Below the pieces are notes generated by a model, which had not been told where the DNA came from, made no database searches, and saw nothing but the letters and a program-made list of their open reading frames with translations. A DNA stretch of 64,000 nt from a virus, in IMG/VR virus record IMGVR_UViG_3300035070_002626, positions 235,911 through 299,910 of that record; one strand, 5' to 3'. Positions 6,100 through 23,615 of the stretch are shown piece after piece (position 1 is the stretch's first letter; each line of letters starts with the position of its first letter). The translations under genes were made by a program, and so were the position numbers.

Positions 6100-6750
6100 T
6101 TAACCGTATTGTGGGTTCTCAATCTGTACTAGATTAATAGTTGTTGTTGATCCTTCGGCACCTGATTTTTCAATTGTGTCATCAAGAACATTAAAGTAGT
6201 TAACCAATACTTTTGCGTTAGCAAAGTTGATTGCATACTTGTTAGTCATACGCTTGATACGCACTAGAGAAGAACCTTCGTCAGCATAAGTTACTGTCAT
6301 AGTATTAGCTGTTAATGCTGCATCAGCTAAATCAGCTAGTACACAAACACCGATTGTATCTGCTGTGCCTGTACCTGCACCTACACCGGTTGCTTTAAAT
6401 GTACTACCAACGCCTGCATCTGGGCCTGCACCAATTGATTGCCAGTCAGTATTGCCAAGTGCTGTAATGATGTATAGATTGTCAACAATAAACGAACCAG
6501 CTGTAACGCCAGTCGAATCGCCAACTAGGTATTTTGTTGAACCTTTTTGACGAATAATATAGCCGTCTGCTTCAGCAACTGTGCCGATTTTAACACGACA
6601 TGTTGTTGTTGGAAACTCTCCACTTGATAGATTTGAATTACCGCCAACTTGACCGAAGTATAGCTCGCCTGCTGGTGTACCATTTCCGTCTGGATTGTTA
6701 AAGCCAGCGTCTCTAGTATCAGAAATTTTAATTTTGAGAGGACGTCCCAT
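6100..6750 (-). CDS. Virion structural (possible capsid decoration) protein
   Basis: 216 residues starting MGRPLKIKISDT, then a segment TPAGELYFGQVGG typical of small marine-phage virion proteins. Residues 86-134 form a recurring module (NLYIITALGNTDWQSIGAG, then VGSTFKATGVGAGTGTAD) that I recall from many phage structural proteins. The C-terminal part has MTNKYAINFANAKVLVNYF. No catalytic residues are evident. The gene stands alone between two terminators directly downstream of the major capsid gene, with its own leader and good SD (AAGGAG). High-level independent expression next to gp23 would suit a capsid decoration protein, but this is inference. Confidence 0.6.
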   Translation of the reverse strand: MGRPLKIKISDTRDAGFNNPDGNGTPAGELYFGQVGGNSNLSSGEFPTTTCRVKIGTVAEADGYIIRQKGSTKYLVGDSTGVTAGSFIVDNLYIITALGNTDWQSIGAGPDAGVGSTFKATGVGAGTGTADTIGVCVLADLADAALTANTMTVTYADEGSSLVRIKRMTNKYAINFANAKVLVNYFNVLDDTIEKSGAEGSTTTINLVQIENPQYG

Positions 6751-6777
6751 GTTGTTTTCTCCTTGTAGAAGTCCGAT

Positions 6778-6812
6778 GTAGGTTCTAGCCTACTACGCGG
6801 ATGGTGTTCCGC
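6778..6812 (-). other. Two hairpins in the leader of the 6750 gene
   Basis: Within the roughly 90-base leader are GCGGA/TCCGC (6797-6801 with 6808-6812) and GTAGG/CCTAC (6778-6782 with 6789-6793). Neither is followed by a U-run, so they are leader structure rather than terminators. Confidence 0.4.
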
Positions 6813-6839
6813 ATAAAACGCAGTATTACGTTAGAAAAG

Positions 6840-8146: not shown

Positions 8147-9238
8147 TTAAAGCCCTGCTAGGCGCTTAAGATCGATAACGTTATTAGCGTCATTTGTTTG
8201 TGATCTTTGTTGTTCGGCCTTAACAGTTTTGTTACCAGTAGATTCAACAAGTGCTTCAGCTTTTTTAGTTGCTTTAGCTTCACTGAGTACTGCTGGCAAA
8301 TACTTCTCAAATGCGTTCTTTAGACGAGATGTTTGAACGTTTTCAAGAAGATTAATCATTACTTCTCTCTTTTGATCGTTAAGAGGAGATAGTAGTTCGT
8401 CTAATGTAGCTTCCCGCTCATTAGCTTCACGAATGATTTTAATTTCATGATTTTTGCTCTCAACAAGCTTTGCGGCTTGTTTTTGAGCAGTAACGGCTTC
8501 TGCCAACTTAATATCTTTATCTTCAATAGTAGCTAATAGCTTGCGTACTTCTGCATTCTCATTGAGATGCGTGGCACCAAACTCTGTAGCATATGCTTCA
8601 AATATACGGCGACCAAAATTGTTCTCACGAGCAACCTTGATATCCTCTTTAAGTTGACTTAGTTCTTGCGTAAGATGAGTAGCAACAGTTGTTGACATCT
8701 TTTTAGCAGATTCTTTTACAAATTTACTTTTTAGACTATCAAGTTGTCCACGTGCTTCGCTGACAAGTTTTACTTTAGTTTCAACTAAGTCTTTCTTGTC
8801 TGCTGCGAATTCCTTGATTTCTTCGGCCAAAGCACTTACAATAAAAGATTCTAGCTTACCAAAACCTTCTGCTTGTACTTTGCGATCTGTGCGTAGTTCG
8901 CGAAGCTCTTCGGAAAGTTTTGATACCATAAAGTTATTAAATTTATTAGCATTTTCTTTCATTGCTTTTGCGGCTTTTACACGGTCCTCTGCAAGCGCCT
9001 TTTTCTCTTCGTTAAGTTGAGCAATTTCTTCTTGCAGGCCTTCTGTTACCATTTTATCTAGGGCTTCTACCATCACTGTTTTATCATGATCATAGCGTTG
9101 TGCAAACTCCTCACGAAGTTCTGCACGAACTGTTTCTTTGGTCTCATTCAACTTTGCTGCCCATTGTTCAGCAATAGCATTACGAGTATCCTCATTAACC
9201 AGGTCGCTATCTAGTAGTGGTTTAATAGCATCTAACAT
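8147..9238 (-). CDS. 22: Prohead scaffold protein gp22
   Basis: 363 residues, highly charged and almost entirely predicted coiled coil, e.g. ETVRAELREEF, EEIAQLNEEKKALAEDR, KNHEIKIIREANERE. It ends in a short tail NNVIDLKRLAGL. T4 gp22 is the major core scaffold around which gp23 assembles and which gp21 degrades. Assignment rests on composition plus exact position between gp21 and gp23; the C-terminal SPLNDQKREVMINLLENVQT region agrees with what I recall of marine gp22 proteins. There are 21 bases to gp23 and 9 to gp21, consistent with one transcript. Confidence 0.92.
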   Translation of the reverse strand: MLDAIKPLLDSDLVNEDTRNAIAEQWAAKLNETKETVRAELREEFAQRYDHDKTVMVEALDKMVTEGLQEEIAQLNEEKKALAEDRVKAAKAMKENANKFNNFMVSKLSEELRELRTDRKVQAEGFGKLESFIVSALAEEIKEFAADKKDLVETKVKLVSEARGQLDSLKSKFVKESAKKMSTTVATHLTQELSQLKEDIKVARENNFGRRIFEAYATEFGATHLNENAEVRKLLATIEDKDIKLAEAVTAQKQAAKLVESKNHEIKIIREANEREATLDELLSPLNDQKREVMINLLENVQTSRLKNAFEKYLPAVLSEAKATKKAEALVESTGNKTVKAEQQRSQTNDANNVIDLKRLAGL

Positions 9239-14266: not shown

Positions 14267-16442
14267 ACCCTCGACGGGTTGCATTTAGTATTTCCTGGCT
14301 GGTGTTGTTAGCACGTTGCATAGCAGTTACAAGTTCAGTTAATTTTTCAATGGTTAGATCCGACACTTCTTTTCTTGCTAGACTATCTGCATGCTGGCTT
14401 GCCAATTGATTGTTTGCTACTTTGAGATTTTCATTTAATACATCTGACAAATTGCTGCTGTTTTGTAACGTGCCGGCTGGGCCTGCTGTTGAAGGTACAG
14501 CATCTGATGTTCCTGGTGGAGCATATTTTTTTCTACTTTCTTCAAGTAGTTTTAATAAATCACTATTGTTTCCGTAATCTGGTGCTGCACTTGTTGGCGA
14601 AGTACCGTCACCTCCAGCTGGCATTGTTCCACTATCGCCACCAACAAATCTTCCAAAAAACATCTTTTTGATGCTTTCCCATGTCTCTGCGTTTTGTTTT
14701 CTAGAGTTTTCAAGTCTTTCTTGAATTTGTTGTTGCGCTATCTCTCTTTCTTCTGGACTCATACCTGTAAAATCTACAATTCCAGTACCAGATTCTGGCA
14801 TTATTTGTTCAGTAACTGCTGACTTTAATCCTCCTACACCGCCTTCGGAAAATATTTGTAGCATTTTAAGCATTTCGGTATTTGATTTTTGTACTATTTC
14901 GGCAAATTGTTTAACTGCACTAGCTGCTGGGCCCATAAGCTCTTTGGCCATTTTATCAGCTTCAATTGCTGCTCTTTGTAAAGCAACCTGTGCAGAAATT
15001 AAGTCAGCAGTTGTAGTATCCGTTGCTGTTGTTAAACTATCTTGTGATGTTTTTAATTTTTCTAAGTCGTCAGCTGTTAAATTAGCACGTTGGGACACAT
15101 TAAACATACCTTCAAACACTGCATCCAATGGTGTGCCAAGCCCAACTAGTCTAGCAATTCCTGCTGATCCTCCTAGAGAATCAAATCTATTGTTAATGCC
15201 TTGCATGATTAATGCTGTTGCATCAAGATCACTTATAGTACCTGCACGTAGTGCAGCAACCGCAGCAACACCTTCTTGCCCAGCTGCAAGAACAAACCCT
15301 TGTGCAGCTTCGGTACCGAGGTTGCCTGCCATTGCATCACGCAAACCATCAGCAATTTCTTTACTTGCAACAGTTTCAATAGCTGCTGATGTGGTTTGCA
15401 TGGCTAGTGCAGCTCGACGACCTTCGTCGCCGCCTAGTCTTTCTTGGATATCAGCAGCGGCACCCATTAAACGTATGTTTCGTGTTTGTGCATCCATTAT
15501 GGCTTGTTGATCGTCGATACTTCTACCAGTTATCCTCGAAAGAGTGGACAGTTTACGAATGTATTCTTCGCTGCCTTGTGCAAGTGCCCTTGCTGACATT
15601 GTTTCAACTCTACCAGTTCTTGCTTGTAACAACAAATATTTTGTTGTTAGTTCATTTTGTTTTTCGGCGCCCACACCCAAAGCTATCAAGCCTTGTCTAA
15701 ATGGTTCCATGTCTGCTGAGACTCGAGAAAATCTCTCAATACCTTCGCTTGCATCGCCAAACGCAAATGCAAGACCTTCAGCACCTTTGGACGCTACAGC
15801 ACTAAACTGTGTAAAACTAAGTCCAGCATCAATACTTTGATTCATTAGCTCAGTTAATCCGCTAGCAGTTAACCCGCCAACTTGCCCTACTGTGCGAAAT
15901 GCTTCACTTGCACGTTGTACTTCGGCTGTTACTTGCTGGCCTACTGTGGTAAGGATGTCAGCAACTGCTTCAGTAATTGCAGCGGCAAACTTGCCCACTG
16001 CATTGATTGCGCCTCCGATAACGCCGCCAACAACAGGAATACCGTCAGCAAGCCCGCCTAGTGCTTCACCAGCTACTCCTGCTAGTTTTCCTGTTGTTTT
16101 TAGTGCCGAGCCAGCTAGGTTTATCGATGGGTTCAAGCTGGTAAAGTCTTCCCTACTTTGCCTAACTGCACTAGCTGCTTCTGCAAAAGACGATCCGGCC
16201 TTAACAGCGCCAACTGCCATTTTACCTACAGCGGCAGTTCCTTTGCCGACTGAATTAGCAAACGACTCTTGGGAGGATATTATTGCTTTGTACTTGTTTT
16301 GAACATTGCTTAACTGGCTGTTGATTTTATTCCATTGAGAACTGCCTACTTGCTGACTGTTAGCCAGTTGCAACATAGACTGTTGCAATCGAGAGATTTC
16401 ATCATTCAATCTCTGTAGGTCTTGATCATCAAAATCTGCCAT
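14265..16442 (-). CDS. Tail tape-measure protein (gp29-like)
   Basis: 725 residues from ATG 16440-16442 (MADFDDQDLQRLND); an in-frame extension to 16550 would run through the promoter region and the opposite-strand gene and is rejected. It has an N-terminal coiled coil (about 5-60), then a long Ala/Gly-rich helical stretch with a hydrophobic segment (GIPVVGGVIGGAINAVGKF, about 150-170), then helical repeats and a Gly/Pro-rich linker before a final helix. This composition is typical of tape measures, which span the tail tube lumen and set its length. T4 gp29 has 590 residues. Position beside the gp26/gp51 hub genes supports the call. Confidence 0.8.
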   Translation of the reverse strand: MADFDDQDLQRLNDEISRLQQSMLQLANSQQVGSSQWNKINSQLSNVQNKYKAIISSQESFANSVGKGTAAVGKMAVGAVKAGSSFAEAASAVRQSREDFTSLNPSINLAGSALKTTGKLAGVAGEALGGLADGIPVVGGVIGGAINAVGKFAAAITEAVADILTTVGQQVTAEVQRASEAFRTVGQVGGLTASGLTELMNQSIDAGLSFTQFSAVASKGAEGLAFAFGDASEGIERFSRVSADMEPFRQGLIALGVGAEKQNELTTKYLLLQARTGRVETMSARALAQGSEEYIRKLSTLSRITGRSIDDQQAIMDAQTRNIRLMGAAADIQERLGGDEGRRAALAMQTTSAAIETVASKEIADGLRDAMAGNLGTEAAQGFVLAAGQEGVAAVAALRAGTISDLDATALIMQGINNRFDSLGGSAGIARLVGLGTPLDAVFEGMFNVSQRANLTADDLEKLKTSQDSLTTATDTTTADLISAQVALQRAAIEADKMAKELMGPAASAVKQFAEIVQKSNTEMLKMLQIFSEGGVGGLKSAVTEQIMPESGTGIVDFTGMSPEEREIAQQQIQERLENSRKQNAETWESIKKMFFGRFVGGDSGTMPAGGDGTSPTSAAPDYGNNSDLLKLLEESRKKYAPPGTSDAVPSTAGPAGTLQNSSNLSDVLNENLKVANNQLASQHADSLARKEVSDLTIEKLTELVTAMQRANNTSQEILNATRRG

Positions 16443-16467
16443 TAAATTCTTACCCGTTTTTACGCTG

Positions 16468-16475
16468 TATAAGTA
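16468..16475 (+). promoter_or_regulatory. Probable late promoter TATAAGTA for hub genes
   Basis: Seven of eight matches to the late octamer on the plus strand, 30 bases before the ATG of the gp26-like gene. It sits in a small hairpin (CTGTA/TACAG). Confidence 0.5.
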
Positions 16476-16485
16476 CAGTATCATA

Positions 16486-16493
16486 TATTTATG
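16486..16493 (-). promoter_or_regulatory. Late promoter CATAAATA for tape measure
   Basis: Seven of eight matches on the minus strand, 43 bases before the tape measure ATG, forming with 16468-16475 a divergent promoter pair in 63 bases. Confidence 0.6.
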
Positions 16494-16505
16494 GTAGGAA
16501 AAAAC

Positions 16506-17351
16506 ATGGATCACAACAACCCAAACCCACTTGCAAAACACTTTAGGCAACCTGCAATTTATGTCACGTTGCCAAGCAATGGGGTGTACTACGACGAAAA
16601 TATTCTAGTAATGCCAGAGAATAAAGAAATTCCAATTTACCCAATGACAGCACTAGATGAAATTGCATATAGAACTGCTGACGCATTGTTCAACGGCGCT
16701 GCTATTGCTAATGTAATAAAAAGTTGCATCCCTGCTTTTGTAGACACTTGGCAGGTCAGCACACTTGATTTGGATACGTTGTTAATTGCTATAAGAATTG
16801 CAAGTTACGGACACGAAATGGAATTTACCAGCAAGTGTCCAAAGTGCAGCGAAACCAATGAGTTTGGCATTGACTTGAGAAGCATTATGGATCGAATCAA
16901 GACTCCAGATTTTTCTCAACCGGTTGTCAACGGAGACATTGAAATACATTTTAGACCGTTGACGTACACAGAACAAAATCGCAACAACATGTTGCAGTTC
17001 CAAGATCAAAAAATGTTGGAAGCATTACCTGATGCTGACCTTGATGAAGCTGAAAAGCTTAGATTGTTAACTGAAGCATTCCAAAGTCTCAGCGAGCTTA
17101 CTGTAAATGCAATCAGTGACAGTATCAGCATGATCAAAGCAGGCGATGATATTGTAGTAGACAAGGAACACATTACAGAATATATTAAAAACTGCGAATC
17201 TAAAGTTTTTTCAAAAGTACGCAAAAAAATTGAAGAAATTAAAAAACTAGGCGAAATTGACCCTCTTAACATTACTTGCGCCGATTGCAAGCACCAATAC
17301 GAAACGCCGTTTACTATGAATGTTGCAAATTTTTTCGAATCAGGCTCTTAA
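16506..17351 (+). CDS. Baseplate hub protein, gp26-like
   Basis: 281 residues from ATG 16506, chosen over the in-frame ATG at 16491 because AGGAAAAAAC stands directly before it. Landmarks are LPSNGVYY (22-29), MTALDEIAYRTADALFNG (47-64), a conserved I.SCIP (71-75), and two CXXC pairs (C111/C114 in CPKC, C258/C261 in CADC) that could hold one zinc. This matches the T4-type baseplate family that includes hub subunit gp26. It would act in central hub assembly at the tail tip. The last codons contain a slippery AAATTTT (17327-17333), and a -1 shift there would continue into the gp51-like frame (see findings). Confidence 0.7.
   Translation: MDHNNPNPLAKHFRQPAIYVTLPSNGVYYDENILVMPENKEIPIYPMTALDEIAYRTADALFNGAAIANVIKSCIPAFVDTWQVSTLDLDTLLIAIRIASYGHEMEFTSKCPKCSETNEFGIDLRSIMDRIKTPDFSQPVVNGDIEIHFRPLTYTEQNRNNMLQFQDQKMLEALPDADLDEAEKLRLLTEAFQSLSELTVNAISDSISMIKAGDDIVVDKEHITEYIKNCESKVFSKVRKKIEEIKKLGEIDPLNITCADCKHQYETPFTMNVANFFESGS
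17327..17333 (+). promoter_or_regulatory. Candidate -1 frameshift heptamer A AAT TTT
   Basis: In the gp26 frame the codons are GCA AAT TTT TTC, so the heptamer has the canonical X XXY YYZ form. A -1 slip leads into the open frame encoding the gp51-like sequence, 18 bases before the gp26 stop. Confidence 0.5.
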
Positions 17352-17566: not shown

Positions 17567-18063
17567 TCGATGAAGTAAAAGCCAACATCGAAGAATGGTT
17601 GATCAACTTTCTTGAAGTTCCACATCCTGCATTAGGCAATTGGTCACCATGCCCGTATGCTAGAAAAGCACGACTAGCCAACAAATACAGTGTGCGCATT
17701 GGCACTTCTCTAGCACAAGACATGATAAATGTTGCCGAAGAAGGCATGGGCAACCAAGATGTGTACATTTATGTGTACAACCCTGATGATTACGATCCTG
17801 AAGAATTTGAAGACACAATTGATAATGTCAACGAAGAAACACTAGTACCTATTGACATGCTAGCACTGTCAGACCATCCAGGTGTTCCTGAAGTAGTTAA
17901 TGGTGTGAAATTCAATCACGGAAAGTATGCACTAGCACTAGTACAAAGTCGCAGCAAGTTACACAGTCATGCAAAGATATTAGGTAAAAAAGGTTTCTAC
18001 AACGGCTGGGACGAAGAGTATCTTACTGGTCTATTTTCAAATCGTGAAGATCCACGACTTTAG
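17560..18063 (+). CDS. Conserved hypothetical protein with CPYA motif
   Basis: 167 residues from a TTG start (17560-17562) that overlaps the gp51-like stop by seven bases; AGGAAGAG lies about 9 bases before it and no ATG is available near the N-terminus. It begins VIDEVKANIEEWLINFLEVP, then PCPYARKARLANKY at about 30-44, an acidic middle (NPDDYDPEEFEDTIDNVNEE) and KLHSHAKILGKKGFYNGWDE. I recall this type of protein downstream of gp51 in related phages but know no function. One may speculate on an enzyme because of the Cys/His content. The 3' end overlaps the convergent gene by 41 bases. Confidence 0.65.
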   Translation: MVIDEVKANIEEWLINFLEVPHPALGNWSPCPYARKARLANKYSVRIGTSLAQDMINVAEEGMGNQDVYIYVYNPDDYDPEEFEDTIDNVNEETLVPIDMLALSDHPGVPEVVNGVKFNHGKYALALVQSRSKLHSHAKILGKKGFYNGWDEEYLTGLFSNREDPRL

Positions 18064-18709
18064 AATTTAACAGCTTGGTGTCTCTCTTGCACAACCACAC
18101 ATAGTGATCAACATCAGTGCTCCATTGTTGTCCCGTCCACCACTCAAATCCGTCAACTCGGCTTTTGTAAGTGCATATCTTCTCATATCCACTTCCCATG
18201 TACACATGCGAATACCCAGATTGTTTAGCCCAGGCAATTTCGTGATGCATTGTGCGTTCGCCTAAACGCAAATGCGGCTCATTATAGTCCCACGCAAATA
18301 ATGCTGTTTCAATACTGTTGGGACTGTATCTACGTAACTTACTCCATGCAACCAGCTCAGCATCGTGGTGATACTGAACATAGATATCCCAACTGAGTTG
18401 GTCATCAAGAGTGTACATTTTCTTAAAGCCTTTTTTCAAACAGTAGGCACTGTACACATGATCCATTTCGCTTGTAGAACTGTCAGTGATTTGGTAATTG
18501 TTTATTAGACTATAATCAGTGTTAGCAACATTTACTCTGGTACTACGACTTTGATACCAAATTTTTTCACCGTTGTCTACTGTTAATAACCATCCTTGAG
18601 CCAGCGCCTCATCGTGTTCACTGATGTCAACATCAACTAATTTTGGTATATTGTAGTTTATATCAGCTTGGCTCAGTGTGCCAAAAACATTATCGAATAC
18701 TATTTTCAT
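18023..18709 (-). CDS. GNAT-fold acyltransferase resembling ATE aminoacyltransferase
   Basis: 228 residues. The C-terminal half resembles arginyl/leucyl-tRNA-protein transferases: LVAWSKLRRY (119-128), ALFAWDYNEPHLRLGERTMH (136-155), EIAWAKQSGYSHVYMGSGYE (157-176), then CTYKSRVDGFEWW (179-191), parallel to the ATE pattern 'LG.Y.I..EI..A...G..YVYLGY.I..C..M.YK..F.P'. The family transfers an amino acid from tRNA to protein N-termini; whether this protein does so is unknown, and the N-terminal Cys-rich domain of classical ATE is absent. It could instead be another GNAT enzyme. The gene is convergent with 17560-18063 and divergent from 18741 with only 31 bases between. Confidence 0.5.
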   Translation of the reverse strand: MKIVFDNVFGTLSQADINYNIPKLVDVDISEHDEALAQGWLLTVDNGEKIWYQSRSTRVNVANTDYSLINNYQITDSSTSEMDHVYSAYCLKKGFKKMYTLDDQLSWDIYVQYHHDAELVAWSKLRRYSPNSIETALFAWDYNEPHLRLGERTMHHEIAWAKQSGYSHVYMGSGYEKICTYKSRVDGFEWWTGQQWSTDVDHYVWLCKRDTKLLNSKVVDLHDLKIDQ

Positions 18710-19885: not shown

Positions 19886-19900
19886 GATGTCTAAAGACAT

Positions 19901-19934
19901 CTATTAATTCGCTATCGCTCTTAATAGTTTTTTT
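19901..19934 (+). terminator. Terminator after the pyruvyltransferase-like gene
   Basis: CTATTAA (19901-19907) pairs with TTAATAG (19921-19927) and is followed by seven T. A second perfect hairpin, AGATGTC/GACATCT (19885-19902), overlaps its left edge by two bases and the stop codon, so the two are partly alternative. Confidence 0.7.
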
Positions 19935-19937
19935 ATA

Positions 19938-20308
19938 CAAGTGATTAATATTATTAAGCACGAGAGAATCGAGTGTTTCATTATCATCTAGATTTTTTGG
20001 TCATACTTGCCCTTGCACAGGGCAAGCATAACCGAACATACATCATCATCTGAGTCGTGTCAGTCACTTGAATAAAGAGATTTGTAATAGTTACAACGGA
20101 TGCGGTTACGCTTTACACCCTACTCTAGCCTTGTCTCGCAACGGAGCCCTGTAATATACTCATTCAAGCAAGTATATCGAGAGCACAGGTTGTATCTGTT
20201 TCACAGAGCCTGTATCATTTTAGCCTTAAGTTAGCCTGTCCTTGGAACTCACTATATCTGTTCATGCAATTACTACATGTTCTCATAGTGGGTCGAGGTG
20301 CCTCGACC
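19938..20308. ncRNA. Candidate structured noncoding RNA
   Basis: This 567-base gene-free stretch (19886-20452) has no convincing coding frame but is rich in perfect stems: CTTGCCCT/AGGGCAAG (20006-20013 with 20019-20026, extended by GGT/ACC), TTGTAA/TTACAA (20082-20087, 20091-20096), ATATACT/AGTATAT (20154-20160, 20171-20177), ACAGG/CCTGT enclosing CTGT/ACAG (20185-20213), CACTAT/ATAGTG (20250-20255, 20285-20290) and GGTCGAGG/CCTCGACC (20291-20308). CAAGTGA (19938-19944) can close a long-range stem with TCACTTG (20064-20070). I do not recognise tRNA, tmRNA, RNase P or a canonical group I core. Strand is undetermined. 20309-20452 shows nothing further. Confidence 0.55.
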
Positions 20309-20452
20309 AAACAATGTTCCTATAATAGCTGGGGAATTTTAAAAGGGAAAGTTAAAAAGAAGTTTGAGCATTGCTCTGTTTATTTGCCTGTGCATAGTGT
20401 TTATGCGAATATTTTGTATGTAGTAAATTTATGTATATAGTAAAGCATTATG

Positions 20453-21442
20453 TTAACTTTGTAAACTGTCTAGTATTTCTTTTGCATACTTTTGGTGTGT
20501 TAGCGGCCCAGGGTGCATGTTGTTTGTGCCTAAATCTAAAAACTCTTCGTATAAACCCTGTATGTCTTCAAAATTTGGCGTAAATTTTCTAATAACATTG
20601 CATGTCTTGTTGAATAGAAAGCGGTCTAGTGCACTATTTCCAGGAAACATGTTGTAGCATTTTAATGTAGCACCAATTTTTTTGCAATAATTTTCTACTT
20701 GTAAGATTGAACACAACTGGCGGTGTAGGTTATTTTCTGAAAAAAGCTCATAACGTGAAAAATGTAATTTTTTTGATAGTTTTAAATTTTCCTTTGGCCT
20801 TGGTGGCCATCCTGGTCTTATAAAATGCAATTCGCCTTCGTGTGCATGGTAAAAACGTTCCCAGTGTGTTATACCCCAAACAACAATATCTCCAGAGATA
20901 ATATTACTTCTAAGTATTTGGTCAGCTGACCAAGATATATCGGTTCCGCCTTTTGCAATATTTGTAACCGGCATATCCAAGTGCTTGCCAAGTAGGTATC
21001 CATAGTTTTCTGTTTCACTTACACCAGTTGCAGAACTAAAACTACATCCTGCCACCCATAGCTGATTTTTGTCAGTTTGTCTTTCTTTTATCGTTGGAAT
21101 TGTGCAGTGTAAACCGTTAATATGTTCAAGTCCATATGTTTTTGTAAAATTACTTCCGTGTAACAAGAGTGGTTCGAGTACATATTTCTCGTTTTCAGTA
21201 TACAAATTATTATCTGTTTCCCAACCGTGTTGCGGTGAATAGTGTACAATATCGCTAGTAATTATGCAATTCCATATCTTTGATTCTGCTTTAGACAGAT
21301 CTGCTATGCTTGTATAACCACTTTCTGGTGAAGCAAGCCACGATGTATAGTTTGAATCATTTACTAGTACACTGTCTGGATCAACAAATTTAGCCAATCT
21401 TGCTAGATATTCGTTGCTGCTCCCAATCCAAAGTTGTTTCAT
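20453..21442 (-). CDS. SGNH/GDSL hydrolase-like protein
   Basis: 329 residues. After a roughly 125-residue N-terminal region comes block I VAGCSFSSATG (130-140) with S134 as the likely nucleophile, block II-like NIAKGGTDISW (161-171), a DIVVWGITHWERFY strand where the block III residue lies, and near the C-terminus NNMHPGPLTH with H310 as the catalytic His. SGNH hydrolases remove acetyl or acyl groups from glycans and lipids. With glycan genes nearby, deacylation of a surface sugar is a reasonable but unproven role. Its start overlaps the stop of the GIY-YIG gene by ATGA (21439-21442), so they share a message. Confidence 0.7.
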   Translation of the reverse strand: MKQLWIGSSNEYLARLAKFVDPDSVLVNDSNYTSWLASPESGYTSIADLSKAESKIWNCIITSDIVHYSPQHGWETDNNLYTENEKYVLEPLLLHGSNFTKTYGLEHINGLHCTIPTIKERQTDKNQLWVAGCSFSSATGVSETENYGYLLGKHLDMPVTNIAKGGTDISWSADQILRSNIISGDIVVWGITHWERFYHAHEGELHFIRPGWPPRPKENLKLSKKLHFSRYELFSENNLHRQLCSILQVENYCKKIGATLKCYNMFPGNSALDRFLFNKTCNVIRKFTPNFEDIQGLYEEFLDLGTNNMHPGPLTHQKYAKEILDSLQS

Positions 21443-21846
21443 TCTTTTAGTATGCCTTTTTGATGTACACGCACCTGTATGTGTCCATTGTACCAGTCTT
21501 TGCTTTCTAGCACTCGATGTGCAAATTGTTCTCTAGCTTCGATGTAGCTAAGTTCGCTTTTGCTACTACACCAAAACATTATTTCACGTTTAAATTTGTC
21601 TTTGCCTAGCAATTCTACATCAGCTGATAATGCATCACTACTTCCATAGTAGTCTTTCCAGTCGCTTTCTACAGTGTATCTACGTTTGTTAACTCTGCCT
21701 TTAAGCGGCTTTCGGCTGCGTTTAAATTGTGCAAGTTTCTTACCAATATACTTTCGGTTGTTTGTTGTATTTGTGATCAAATATACAAACCCAATTGCGC
21801 CCTCTGGAATGTCTTCTACTTCGGTGTCTTTGTAATACCATGTCAT
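21439..21846 (-). CDS. GIY-YIG endonuclease, Seg-like
   Basis: 135 residues. The GIY-YIG core is GFVYLITN (19-26) plus KYIGKK (32-37), followed by a basic stretch (FKRSRKPLKGRVNKRR), W63..YYGSS (66-70) and the acidic catalytic helix YIEAREQF (101-108). Free-standing GIY-YIG nucleases of T4 (Seg family) are homing-type enzymes that cut relatives lacking them. This one lies directly next to gp46, an insertion place outside any interrupted gene, and the structured RNA is one gene away. A late-promoter-like GATAAATG lies just before the ATG. Confidence 0.85.
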   Translation of the reverse strand: MTWYYKDTEVEDIPEGAIGFVYLITNTTNNRKYIGKKLAQFKRSRKPLKGRVNKRRYTVESDWKDYYGSSDALSADVELLGKDKFKREIMFWCSSKSELSYIEAREQFAHRVLESKDWYNGHIQVRVHQKGILKE

Positions 21847-21851
21847 ATAAA

Positions 21852-21859
21852 CATTTATC
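21852..21859 (-). promoter_or_regulatory. Late-promoter-like GATAAATG overlapping gp46 stop
   Basis: Six of eight matches to TATAAATA on the minus strand, five bases before the GIY-YIG ATG; it includes part of the TGA stop of gp46 (21858-21860). Confidence 0.35.
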
Positions 21860-23615
21860 AGATTATTTCCACATCGTTGCTATAACTTGTAAAGCCGTTT
21901 TCCTTGACAACTTTAAGCAAATTATTTACACGACCTGCAAGTTCATCCTTGTGGGAAACAAGCCATATACTCTTGTTGCGTTCTCGTGCCATCTTTTTAA
22001 GCAATGCTAAACTTGCTTCGACTCCTGATGTGTCCATGCCTGAATCAACTAACTCGTCGATAAACAACAAGTTAATTGAGCCATACAAGCTTTCCCACAC
22101 ATCGCGAAACGCCCAGCTCATACTGAGTATAAGTCTGTTGCGCTCACCACGTGACAAGTTATCAAAATCCAAGTCTCTGCCTAGTTCTTGAATCTCCACT
22201 GTGAGATCGTTTTGGAATATAACAGTGTGGGGTAAACCTATCCGATCTAGGTAATGTGTTAATCTAGAATTTAGATAAGAAAGATTTTGGTCAATAATGC
22301 GTTTTCTAACAAAACTATCTTTGTTTGTTAACAACTTCAGCAAGAAGTCTTGGTGTTCTTGCAATCGTGTTAAGTCGTTCACTTTGTCGTAACTAATTTC
22401 TTGTAATGCCGAAGTTTCCATATCGGCTATCTGATCAACATAAGGATCAGTTTCGTCCTTCTTGTTTTCCAGTTGTGTTTCAAGAGAGCTCAGTGTTGAT
22501 TTGTGATTGTGAGCATCGGTTAAGTTGTCGTAAAATGTCTTGGGCTTTGCGGGCACATCTTTCTTCTCGATTAACAGTGTAGCAATGCCTTGCTCTAATT
22601 CTGCTAGGAAGTTAGCTGCATCCAGGTGCTCTTTTTTTGCATCAATCATTTGTTGTTTGTGTGTTTCGAGGTGATCAACACTTTGTCCACATGCGCTACA
22701 AGTACCATCTTCGATGCTGTCAATTGACTTTTTAGTTCTTTTGAAATCTCTATCAGCTCGGCTAACTTGTGCCTGTAGCGCAGCAATGTCTTTTTGTAAT
22801 TGCGATTGTTCATTGTCGACTACAGTCCAGTTAACTAACTGTTCGTGTGCTTCGAGTTCAGATTCGATATTAACATGTGCTAAATCACTAATAGCACGTT
22901 CGATGTTGCTGATTTCTTCTTTGTTTTTATTCAACCAAAGAGTTTGTCTACGTTTGAGTGCATCAACTTGCTCACCAATTTTTTCATTGGCATTTTGTAA
23001 TGCCCGAATTGACATTTCTTCTTCTTTGATTAAATCTTTGGTATTTTTACTTAGTTCTTTGATTTTATCAGCACGTTCACTAAGCAATGTGATACCCAGC
23101 AGTTGCTCGATTATCTCACGTTGATCGTTTGTTTTGAGACTTAAAAACGGTTCGGTGTACGTGTTTAGTGCTACCAAGTGTTTGAACATGGTGTGACTCA
23201 TATTCAAAAGTTTGTTGATAGCACCTTGTGTTTCTCTACTATCGCCTTGTGCATTGTCATCAGCTTCTTGTTCGCTGTTGTTGATATAAAACTTCAACAC
23301 ATTAGGGCTACGACCACGTTCGATTCTATAGCACTTTTCTCCTATGCAAAAGTCTAAACTGACCAACATACCTTTGCTGTTAGTCTTGTTGATTAGATTG
23401 TTGCGTTTGATATTAGTAAGTGCTTGACCGTACAGTGCATAGCTAAGTGCATTGATAATAGTAGTCTTACCAGTGCCATTGCGACTGCCGTCACCGCCGA
23501 GATCAAGATTTTCGCCTAGTACCAATGTAAGGTCTTGCCTGTCAAAGTTAATTGCTTGCGTGGCATTACCTACACTCATGAAGTTCTTGACAGTAAGGTC
23601 TTTGAGCTGAATCAT
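21858..23615 (-). CDS. 46: Recombination nuclease subunit gp46 (Rad50/SbcC-like)
   Basis: 585 residues. SMC-type ATPase: Walker A GSRNGTGKT (43-51), long coiled coils on either side of a zinc hook CSAC (306-309), signature LSRGERNR (487-494), Walker B LLFIDE (516-521) and an H-loop SHK (568-570 by tail count, approximate). With gp47 it forms the Mre11-Rad50-like complex that resects DNA ends for recombination-dependent replication and degrades host DNA. An insert between the first glycine and the P-loop (GENLDLGGDG) is as in other phage gp46 proteins. The start is overlapped by the stop of the glycan-type gene (ATGA-type junction), which separates it from gp47, an unusual arrangement. Confidence 0.95.
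   Translation of the reverse strand: MIQLKDLTVKNFMSVGNATQAINFDRQDLTLVLGENLDLGGDGSRNGTGKTTIINALSYALYGQALTNIKRNNLINKTNSKGMLVSLDFCIGEKCYRIERGRSPNVLKFYINNSEQEADDNAQGDSRETQGAINKLLNMSHTMFKHLVALNTYTEPFLSLKTNDQREIIEQLLGITLLSERADKIKELSKNTKDLIKEEEMSIRALQNANEKIGEQVDALKRRQTLWLNKNKEEISNIERAISDLAHVNIESELEAHEQLVNWTVVDNEQSQLQKDIAALQAQVSRADRDFKRTKKSIDSIEDGTCSACGQSVDHLETHKQQMIDAKKEHLDAANFLAELEQGIATLLIEKKDVPAKPKTFYDNLTDAHNHKSTLSSLETQLENKKDETDPYVDQIADMETSALQEISYDKVNDLTRLQEHQDFLLKLLTNKDSFVRKRIIDQNLSYLNSRLTHYLDRIGLPHTVIFQNDLTVEIQELGRDLDFDNLSRGERNRLILSMSWAFRDVWESLYGSINLLFIDELVDSGMDTSGVEASLALLKKMARERNKSIWLVSHKDELAGRVNNLLKVVKENGFTSYSNDVEII

Follow-up and report, generated by a model that had tools for sequence, protein, structure and literature searches.

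INTRODUCTION

GOLLD and ROOL are large, ornate RNAs linked to phages. ColE1 RNAII and the transcript of T4 oriF act through R-loops: the folded transcript remains hybridised to its template and serves as the primer for DNA synthesis. HDV-like ribozymes are organised as a nested double pseudoknot with the strand order P1-P2-P1.1-P1'-P1.1'-P4-P2'. For jumbo phages, a 2026 review mentions noncoding RNAs for phiKZ only (PMC13282480). The Rfam entry RF01718 (Polynucleobacter-1) is mentioned in the searchable literature by Weinberg 2010 only (PMC2864571).

Here we describe an RNA of T4-like jumbo phages that resembles each of these systems in part. It shares with GOLLD and ROOL that it is large, pseudoknotted and phage-encoded, but it is placed elsewhere and has several paralogs per genome; the Rfam covariance models of GOLLD and ROOL matched neither the window nor a 121Q copy. 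Like ColE1 RNAII and the oriF transcript, it is a noncoding transcript, structured or made from a middle promoter, that lies close to genes for replication and recombination in T4-like phages, but no change of skew was seen at its copies. The likeness to HDV-like ribozymes is one of topology only, since the strand order of its core, S1-S3-S2-S1'-S2'-H4-S3', resembles theirs, whereas the RNA has no P3, no identified catalytic sequence and no match in Rfam. As with group I introns that are accompanied by GIY-YIG homing endonucleases, the RNA has crossing helices and lies beside a GIY-YIG gene. In contrast to such introns it sits between genes and not within one, and the Rfam model Intron_gpI had no match in the window (E ≤ 10) or in a 121Q copy (E ≤ 5). 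The relation to RF01718 is closer and is described below.

RESULTS

A gene-free gap downstream of gp46

The window, which is the whole 64,000-nucleotide stretch of DNA that was analysed, takes up the final 64 kb of a virus record of 299,910 bases with T4-like genes. The initial annotation had pointed to a gene-free stretch of about 570 bases, and a gap of 567 nt (19886-20452) was indeed found between the stop codons of a plus-strand gene (19885) and a minus-strand gene (20453), with no ORF of at least 60 aa. No conserved coding frame was seen in the gap, and relatives are distinguished by non-triplet indels. The gap and its surroundings contain the following features.

19886-19927, no strand assigned: two adjacent hairpins at the convergent junction, with a U-tract on the plus strand, compensatory changes and conservation in all branches
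19890-20331, minus strand: structured noncoding RNA, minimum extent from an nhmmer profile match (E 4e-88)
20453-21442, minus strand: gene for a 329-aa protein, between the RNA and the GIY-YIG gene in the window
21439-21846, minus strand: SegE-like GIY-YIG endonuclease gene (Pfam PF19835, E 3e-36), the conserved upstream neighbour of the RNA
21858-23615, minus strand: gene for a gp46-like recombination endonuclease (Pfam AAA_23), used as the synteny anchor

The gp46-like protein shares up to 50% identity with annotated gp46 proteins of cultured phages, and its nearest cultured relatives are those of jumbo phages. The hairpins at 19886-19927 are a terminator for the plus-strand gene, on whose strand the annotated terminator is present, and likely mark the 3' boundary of the minus-strand RNA.

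An Rfam search of the gap gave no match at the gathering threshold and, at E ≤ 10, one chance match outside 19938-20308. ARAGORN called no tRNA or tmRNA in the window. BLAST searches of the stretch against 50,697 phage records returned chance matches only, and those of the window-branch RNAs against cultured phages returned no significant match. Elsewhere in the window, Rfam freshwater-2 RNA (RF02980), a cis-regulatory candidate, was found on the minus strand at 6748-6833 (62.3 bits). The protein encoded on the minus strand at 18023-18709 weakly matched the C terminus of arginyl-tRNA-protein transferase (PF04377, 26.4 bits against a cut-off of 25), which would be unusual phage cargo.

Relatives in uncultured viruses

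Because the neighbours of the RNA are a SegE-like GIY-YIG gene and the gp46 gene, loci were fetched by gp46, which gave a collection of 80 viral loci. A nucleotide profile seeded with the window sequence recovered the same noncoding element in 58 of 83 loci, in all 58 on one side of gp46 and in one orientation relative to it. A DNA pattern taken from the conserved part added further viral loci, bringing the total with the element to 176 uncultured loci; loci from the pattern search were selected for a few core bases (S1', S2'), whereas the gp46 loci and the 121Q family were not. In bacterial genomes there were 17 exact matches to the pattern, none of them supported by the profile. At 149 of 157 loci (L002-L207), a count that takes in loci found through the RNA alone, the RNA is preceded on its own strand by the SegE-like GIY-YIG gene, which often ends a few tens of bases before it. 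The nuclease that had been annotated one gene away is present, but that spacing is particular to the window; in most relatives the gene abuts the RNA.

The non-redundant relatives formed two groups of 56 and 57 sequences. In the relatives of group 2, RF01718 makes up the 5' domain (91-122 bits, with 122 bits in L069). This 141-nt element lies directly behind the GIY-YIG gene and is followed, after 40 nt and on the same strand, by the conserved 3' domain; in locus L017, for example, RF01718 spans 8511-8646 on the plus strand and the conserved 3' domain 8686-8937. Since RF01718 constitutes the 5' domain in some relatives, the Rfam entry covers just a fragment of a larger RNA and leaves out the core pseudoknot as well as the domain with the heptamers. 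The window copy itself did not match RF01718 at gathering or at E ≤ 10, and it matched no other Rfam family even at E ≤ 10. The initial view that no known class fits therefore holds for the window copy but not for the family, which is not wholly unseen because RF01718 already lists the 5' domain from one branch.

The virus of the window has two detected copies in total. The second, diverged copy, of type B, was found by the profile at 76,269-76,402 of the 300-kb record on the minus strand (E 1e-6), in an intergenic gap outside the window, and shares the 3' hairpin with copy A.

76269-76700 of the window's record (16250-16730 of locus L268), minus strand: region of copy B

Some relatives have type B at the gp46 place. 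Two further candidates in the window's virus, at 143 kb and 217 kb, came from the repeat pattern and were discarded as chance matches within coding sequence. In the 347-kb contig G004, what had been taken for a second copy proved to be the same copy matched again.

Strand and extent of the RNA

A conserved structured RNA is almost certainly encoded in the gap, on the minus strand like gp46. The single-sequence fold of this strand was more stable than 100 of 100 shuffled sequences (z -2.34), whereas that of the plus strand was unremarkable (z -1.41, with 11 of 100 shuffles as good). RNAalifold scores favoured the minus strand in both groups of relatives, with -157 against -131 for the plus strand in group 1 and -128 against -120 in group 2. 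In the same alignments, G-U and A-C cells were counted at 680:67 on the minus strand and 283:144 on the plus strand in group 1, and at 605:178 and 438:160 in the second group. The independently defined core of the window's branch held 40 G-U cells and no broken cells. From the RNAalifold scores, the G-U and A-C counts and the G-U cells of the core, the RNA is read on the gp46 strand from at least 20331 down to about 19890; a plus-strand RNA was rejected for its poorer fold and fewer conserved pairs. The proposal of a structured RNA is borne out, although its strand is the complement of the one drawn. The interval first given, 19938-20308, falls inside an RNA that is larger by the profile match.

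Blastn homology to locus L009 spans 19981-20431 of the window. By these comparisons the 5' end of the RNA is placed somewhere within 20331-20431 and its 3' end near 19886-19927. In the window's branch the RNA begins a few tens of nucleotides past the upstream stop codon, and no clear promoter was seen.

A pseudoknotted core

The core helices were found by eye on alignments, with the S1 consensus GUUGN:NCAAC; RNAalifold cannot draw them because they cross. In the window, the core and the surrounding hairpins map as follows, all on the minus strand.

20073-20144: pseudoknot core in the order S1-S3-UA-S2-loop-S1'-CG-S2'-H4-S3', from covariation
20137-20142: S1 5' strand GUUGCG, pairs with 20105-20110
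20105-20110: S1 3' strand CGUAAC, crosses S2 and S3 (pseudoknot)
20123-20126: S3 5' strand AGAG, pairs with 20076-20079
20076-20079: S3 3' strand CUCU, pairs with 20123-20126
20116-20120: S2 5' strand GGGUG, pairs with 20098-20102
20098-20102: S2 3' strand CAUCC, pairs with 20116-20120
20082-20096: H4 hairpin UUGUAA-CUA-UUACAA, in which 4 of 4 tested pairs change on both sides
20006-20026: apical hairpin CUUGCCC...GGGCAAG between the heptamers, with compensatory changes in relatives
20185-20213: hairpin ACAGG...CCUGU, with covarying pairs 147-150:170-173 of the group 1 consensus
20154-20177: hairpin AUAUACU...AGUAUAU, from the single-sequence fold, with a counterpart helix that covaries in relatives (columns 181-189:198-207)
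20250-20308: hairpins of the 5' domain, CACUAU...AUAGUG and GGUCGAGGCACCUCGACC, from the single-sequence fold

The 5' domain differs from branch to branch. In the core of the window and its relatives, 100% of the cells were paired, with 58 double-change cells against 15.2 ± 2.9 after shuffling and a covariation score of 0.392 against 0.098 ± 0.015. The core of the 121Q family (17 copies) was paired in 98.8% of the cells, with 62 double changes against 17.2 ± 3.6 and a covariation score of 0.602 against 0.238 ± 0.020. Slid controls are biased, as the structures were derived from the same sequences, but this bias does not explain the double changes.

Tree-based counts gave up to 15 independent two-sided changes per core pair. 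When at least two two-sided changes and 85% pairing were required by parsimony, 7 of 18 core pairs passed in group 1 (against 3 of 1935 other column pairs), 6 of 13 in group 2 (against 4 of 1163) and 10 of 15 in the 121Q family (against 12 of 2130). A whole-genome scan with a descriptor of the core recovered the window copy and four of the five copies in phage CBB, with few false matches. The homolog search thus yielded strong covariation, and with neither an Rfam match for the window copy nor a conserved frame it supports the earlier suggestion of a candidate new structured RNA. The long-range closing helix that had been drawn between CAAGTGA (19938) and TCACTTG (20064) did not survive, as relatives vary in the region of the 19938 arm or lack it; what really pairs in the core is the pseudoknot, which was absent from the stems listed at that time.

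Two heptamers that change together

In the 3' domain, the direct-repeat units ACUC-RGAUNAN and AUCU-RGAUNAN flank a conserved hairpin. Both heptamers are identical in the window, on the minus strand.

20045-20051: heptamer copy 1, AGAUGAU, in the context ACUC-AGAUGAU-G, identity-coupled with copy 2 in 121 sequences
19983-19989: heptamer copy 2, AGAUGAU, in the context AUCU-AGAUGAU-A, identity-coupled with copy 1

At three heptamer positions, concerted switches and breaks were counted at 22:2, 12:0 and 5:3, whereas unrelated column pairs showed at most one concerted change; ranks by mutual information agree with the coupling. Nine distinct heptamers were seen, and copy B of the window's virus carries a different one, ACAUGAA, again twice. 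Complementary pairing between the copies cannot yield identity; one shared partner is the simplest cause. Within the RNA there was no coupled column that would mark a segment pairing with both heptamers in cis, and complementary sites were not enriched near the RNA. The words GAUGA and GGA had raised a C/D-box RNA and binding of CsrA/RsmA as candidates; both were rejected because the natural variants AGAUAAU, AGAUCAA and ACAUGAA lose required bases. Among the copies of the 121Q family no heptamer pair was detected, so that it does not characterise the RNA family as a whole.

Multi-copy relatives in cultured jumbo phages

Relatives of the RNA occur in several copies in cultured giant phages whose hosts are gut and plant bacteria. 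In 121Q, CBB, GAP32 and SNUABM_12, gp46 is followed by EndoVII, a gene-free gap, a small gene and the baseplate hub gene, and the gap holds an RNA gene of the same core and strand. The order gp46, nuclease, RNA and baseplate hub gene on the gp46 strand is thereby common to these four phages and the window. The core helices S1, S3 and S2 occur in this order, with S1 crossing, in both of these distant branches. The same core pattern was found in 28 stretches of viral contigs, mostly from genomes of 350-370 kb. The window-branch and 121Q-type RNAs very probably form one family; their kinship is drawn from synteny, strand, core order and short motifs and not from a full-length alignment.

The 121Q-like jumbo phages have four to six paralogs per genome, at positions that are kept from one phage genus to another; in 121Q itself, copies lie at 90, 193, 247 and 327 kb. 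In CBB, all five copies lie in gene-free gaps of 660-790 bases, at five different places with different neighbours. Copies in 121Q-like phages have a TGRRAC-N-TGNTATAAT promoter, each of the five CBB copies lies directly behind one of the 34 TGRRAC-TGNTATAAT promoters of the genome, and many 121Q-like copies end in a U-tract terminator. A TGAAACG/TATA promoter class was described in CBB and linked to DNA-synthesis genes; the promoter prediction covered the 100 bp before each annotated gene, and the term "non-coding" is absent from the text of that paper (PMC5259590). The CBB copies are spaced 52-84 kb apart, more evenly than five random points (P ~0.002), in a test made after the pattern had been seen. 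GAP32, XbC2 and Munch show similarly even spacing, but these relatives are not independent of CBB.

Just 3' of the terminator in 121Q-family copies (for example 18245-18300 of locus L087) lies another conserved hairpin, TTCATTCCCC...GGGGGATGAA, with AAATG-CCTCAACAAATC behind it, and this arrangement is common to many paralogs of the family. At the same syntenic place, gene-free gaps that look structured were observed in Sinorhizobium phage Phosso (1015 nt, 18411-19424 of L085), where RNase HI comes next, and in PA5oct (664 nt, 18868-19530 of L084), where a 32-nt piece of the gap occurs once more elsewhere in the genome. In the gaps of PA5oct, Phosso and Atu_ph07, the core was not found by profile or descriptor.

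DISCUSSION

Sequence comparison places a pseudoknotted core in two distant branches, at one syntenic place after gp46, with paralogs and an identical pair of heptamers. We consider it somewhat better than an even bet (probability roughly 0.55) that the locus is a gene dedicated to a structured noncoding RNA in T4-like jumbo phages, whose product would act in trans and be bound by a partner at the heptamers. That the RNA works in trans through a partner bound twice has, taken by itself, about an even chance. In the 121Q-like phages the RNA would be made from its own middle-type promoter, and in the window's branch it is probably the processed 3' end of the gp46/GIY-YIG transcript. The stable RNA would then act in trans, with a rigid pseudoknotted scaffold presenting the two identical heptamers to one partner, either RNA or protein. 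The specificity of the partner may differ between phages; we propose that both heptamers would be forced to change together because this specificity changes.

Alternatively, the RNA could belong to an RNA-primed replication origin, where a folded transcript primes DNA synthesis and several copies mean several origins. The even spacing of the 121Q-like copies in gene-free gaps fits such a model, although that test followed sight of the pattern, and so does their use of the promoter class that the CBB authors tied to DNA-synthesis genes. A promoter driving a noncoding transcript, as this model expects, is present in 121Q-like phages, gp46 and EndoVII adjoin one copy, and RNase HI follows the Phosso gap. 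However, GC skew does not reverse at the five CBB copies, although skew is a poor indicator in T4-like phages, and the window's virus has just two detected copies. We regard an origin as rather unlikely.

Also unlikely is a cis-acting 3' UTR element, which would stabilise the gp46-GIY-YIG mRNA at its 3' end, or process it there, and would block convergent transcription. The window's branch would suit it, with the RNA directly after the upstream stop codon, no clear promoter and a convergent junction with terminator hairpins. The 121Q-like copies, by contrast, have their own promoters at five places with different neighbours, and a 400-nt pseudoknotted RNA with coupled heptamers far exceeds what a stabiliser needs.

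It is doubtful that the RNA is a re-addressable dual-site guide, with heptamers that recognise one target and a SegE-like GIY-YIG nuclease or other effector directed by the RNA; the target would then vary from phage to phage and also among the paralogs of one phage, with AGAUGAU in copy A of the window's virus and ACAUGAA in its copy B. Even less likely is a selfish or guided element that unites the SegE-like nuclease with the RNA and has the heptamers as its address. The nuclease gene is indeed a near-constant same-strand neighbour upstream, also at the RNA-only loci, but no GIY-YIG gene is annotated beside the inspected CBB copies or the gp46 copy of 121Q, the stable positions between genera do not suggest mobility, and the lack of enriched complementary sites near the RNA leaves no target found. 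A DNA-level element (iterons, a packaging site or a recombination site) with fortuitous hairpins is strongly disfavoured, since identity-coupled direct repeats do behave like binding sites or recombination cores but such an element cannot explain the strand asymmetry of the pairing, with its many conserved G-U cells, or the covariation of the pseudoknot in separate clades.

A dedicated trans-acting RNA gene thus remains our preferred reading. The joint changes of the heptamers are an evolutionary signal of a rare kind, of identity and not of complementarity, and predict a single partner that is contacted twice. If the dual-site guide were true, it would be an RNA-directed phage system of an undescribed kind. 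The orphan Rfam entry RF01718 becomes a domain of a larger RNA, and the several copies in cultured phages make immediate testing in laboratory hosts possible. The family joins the short list of large structured phage RNAs and is widespread in uncultured jumbo phages.
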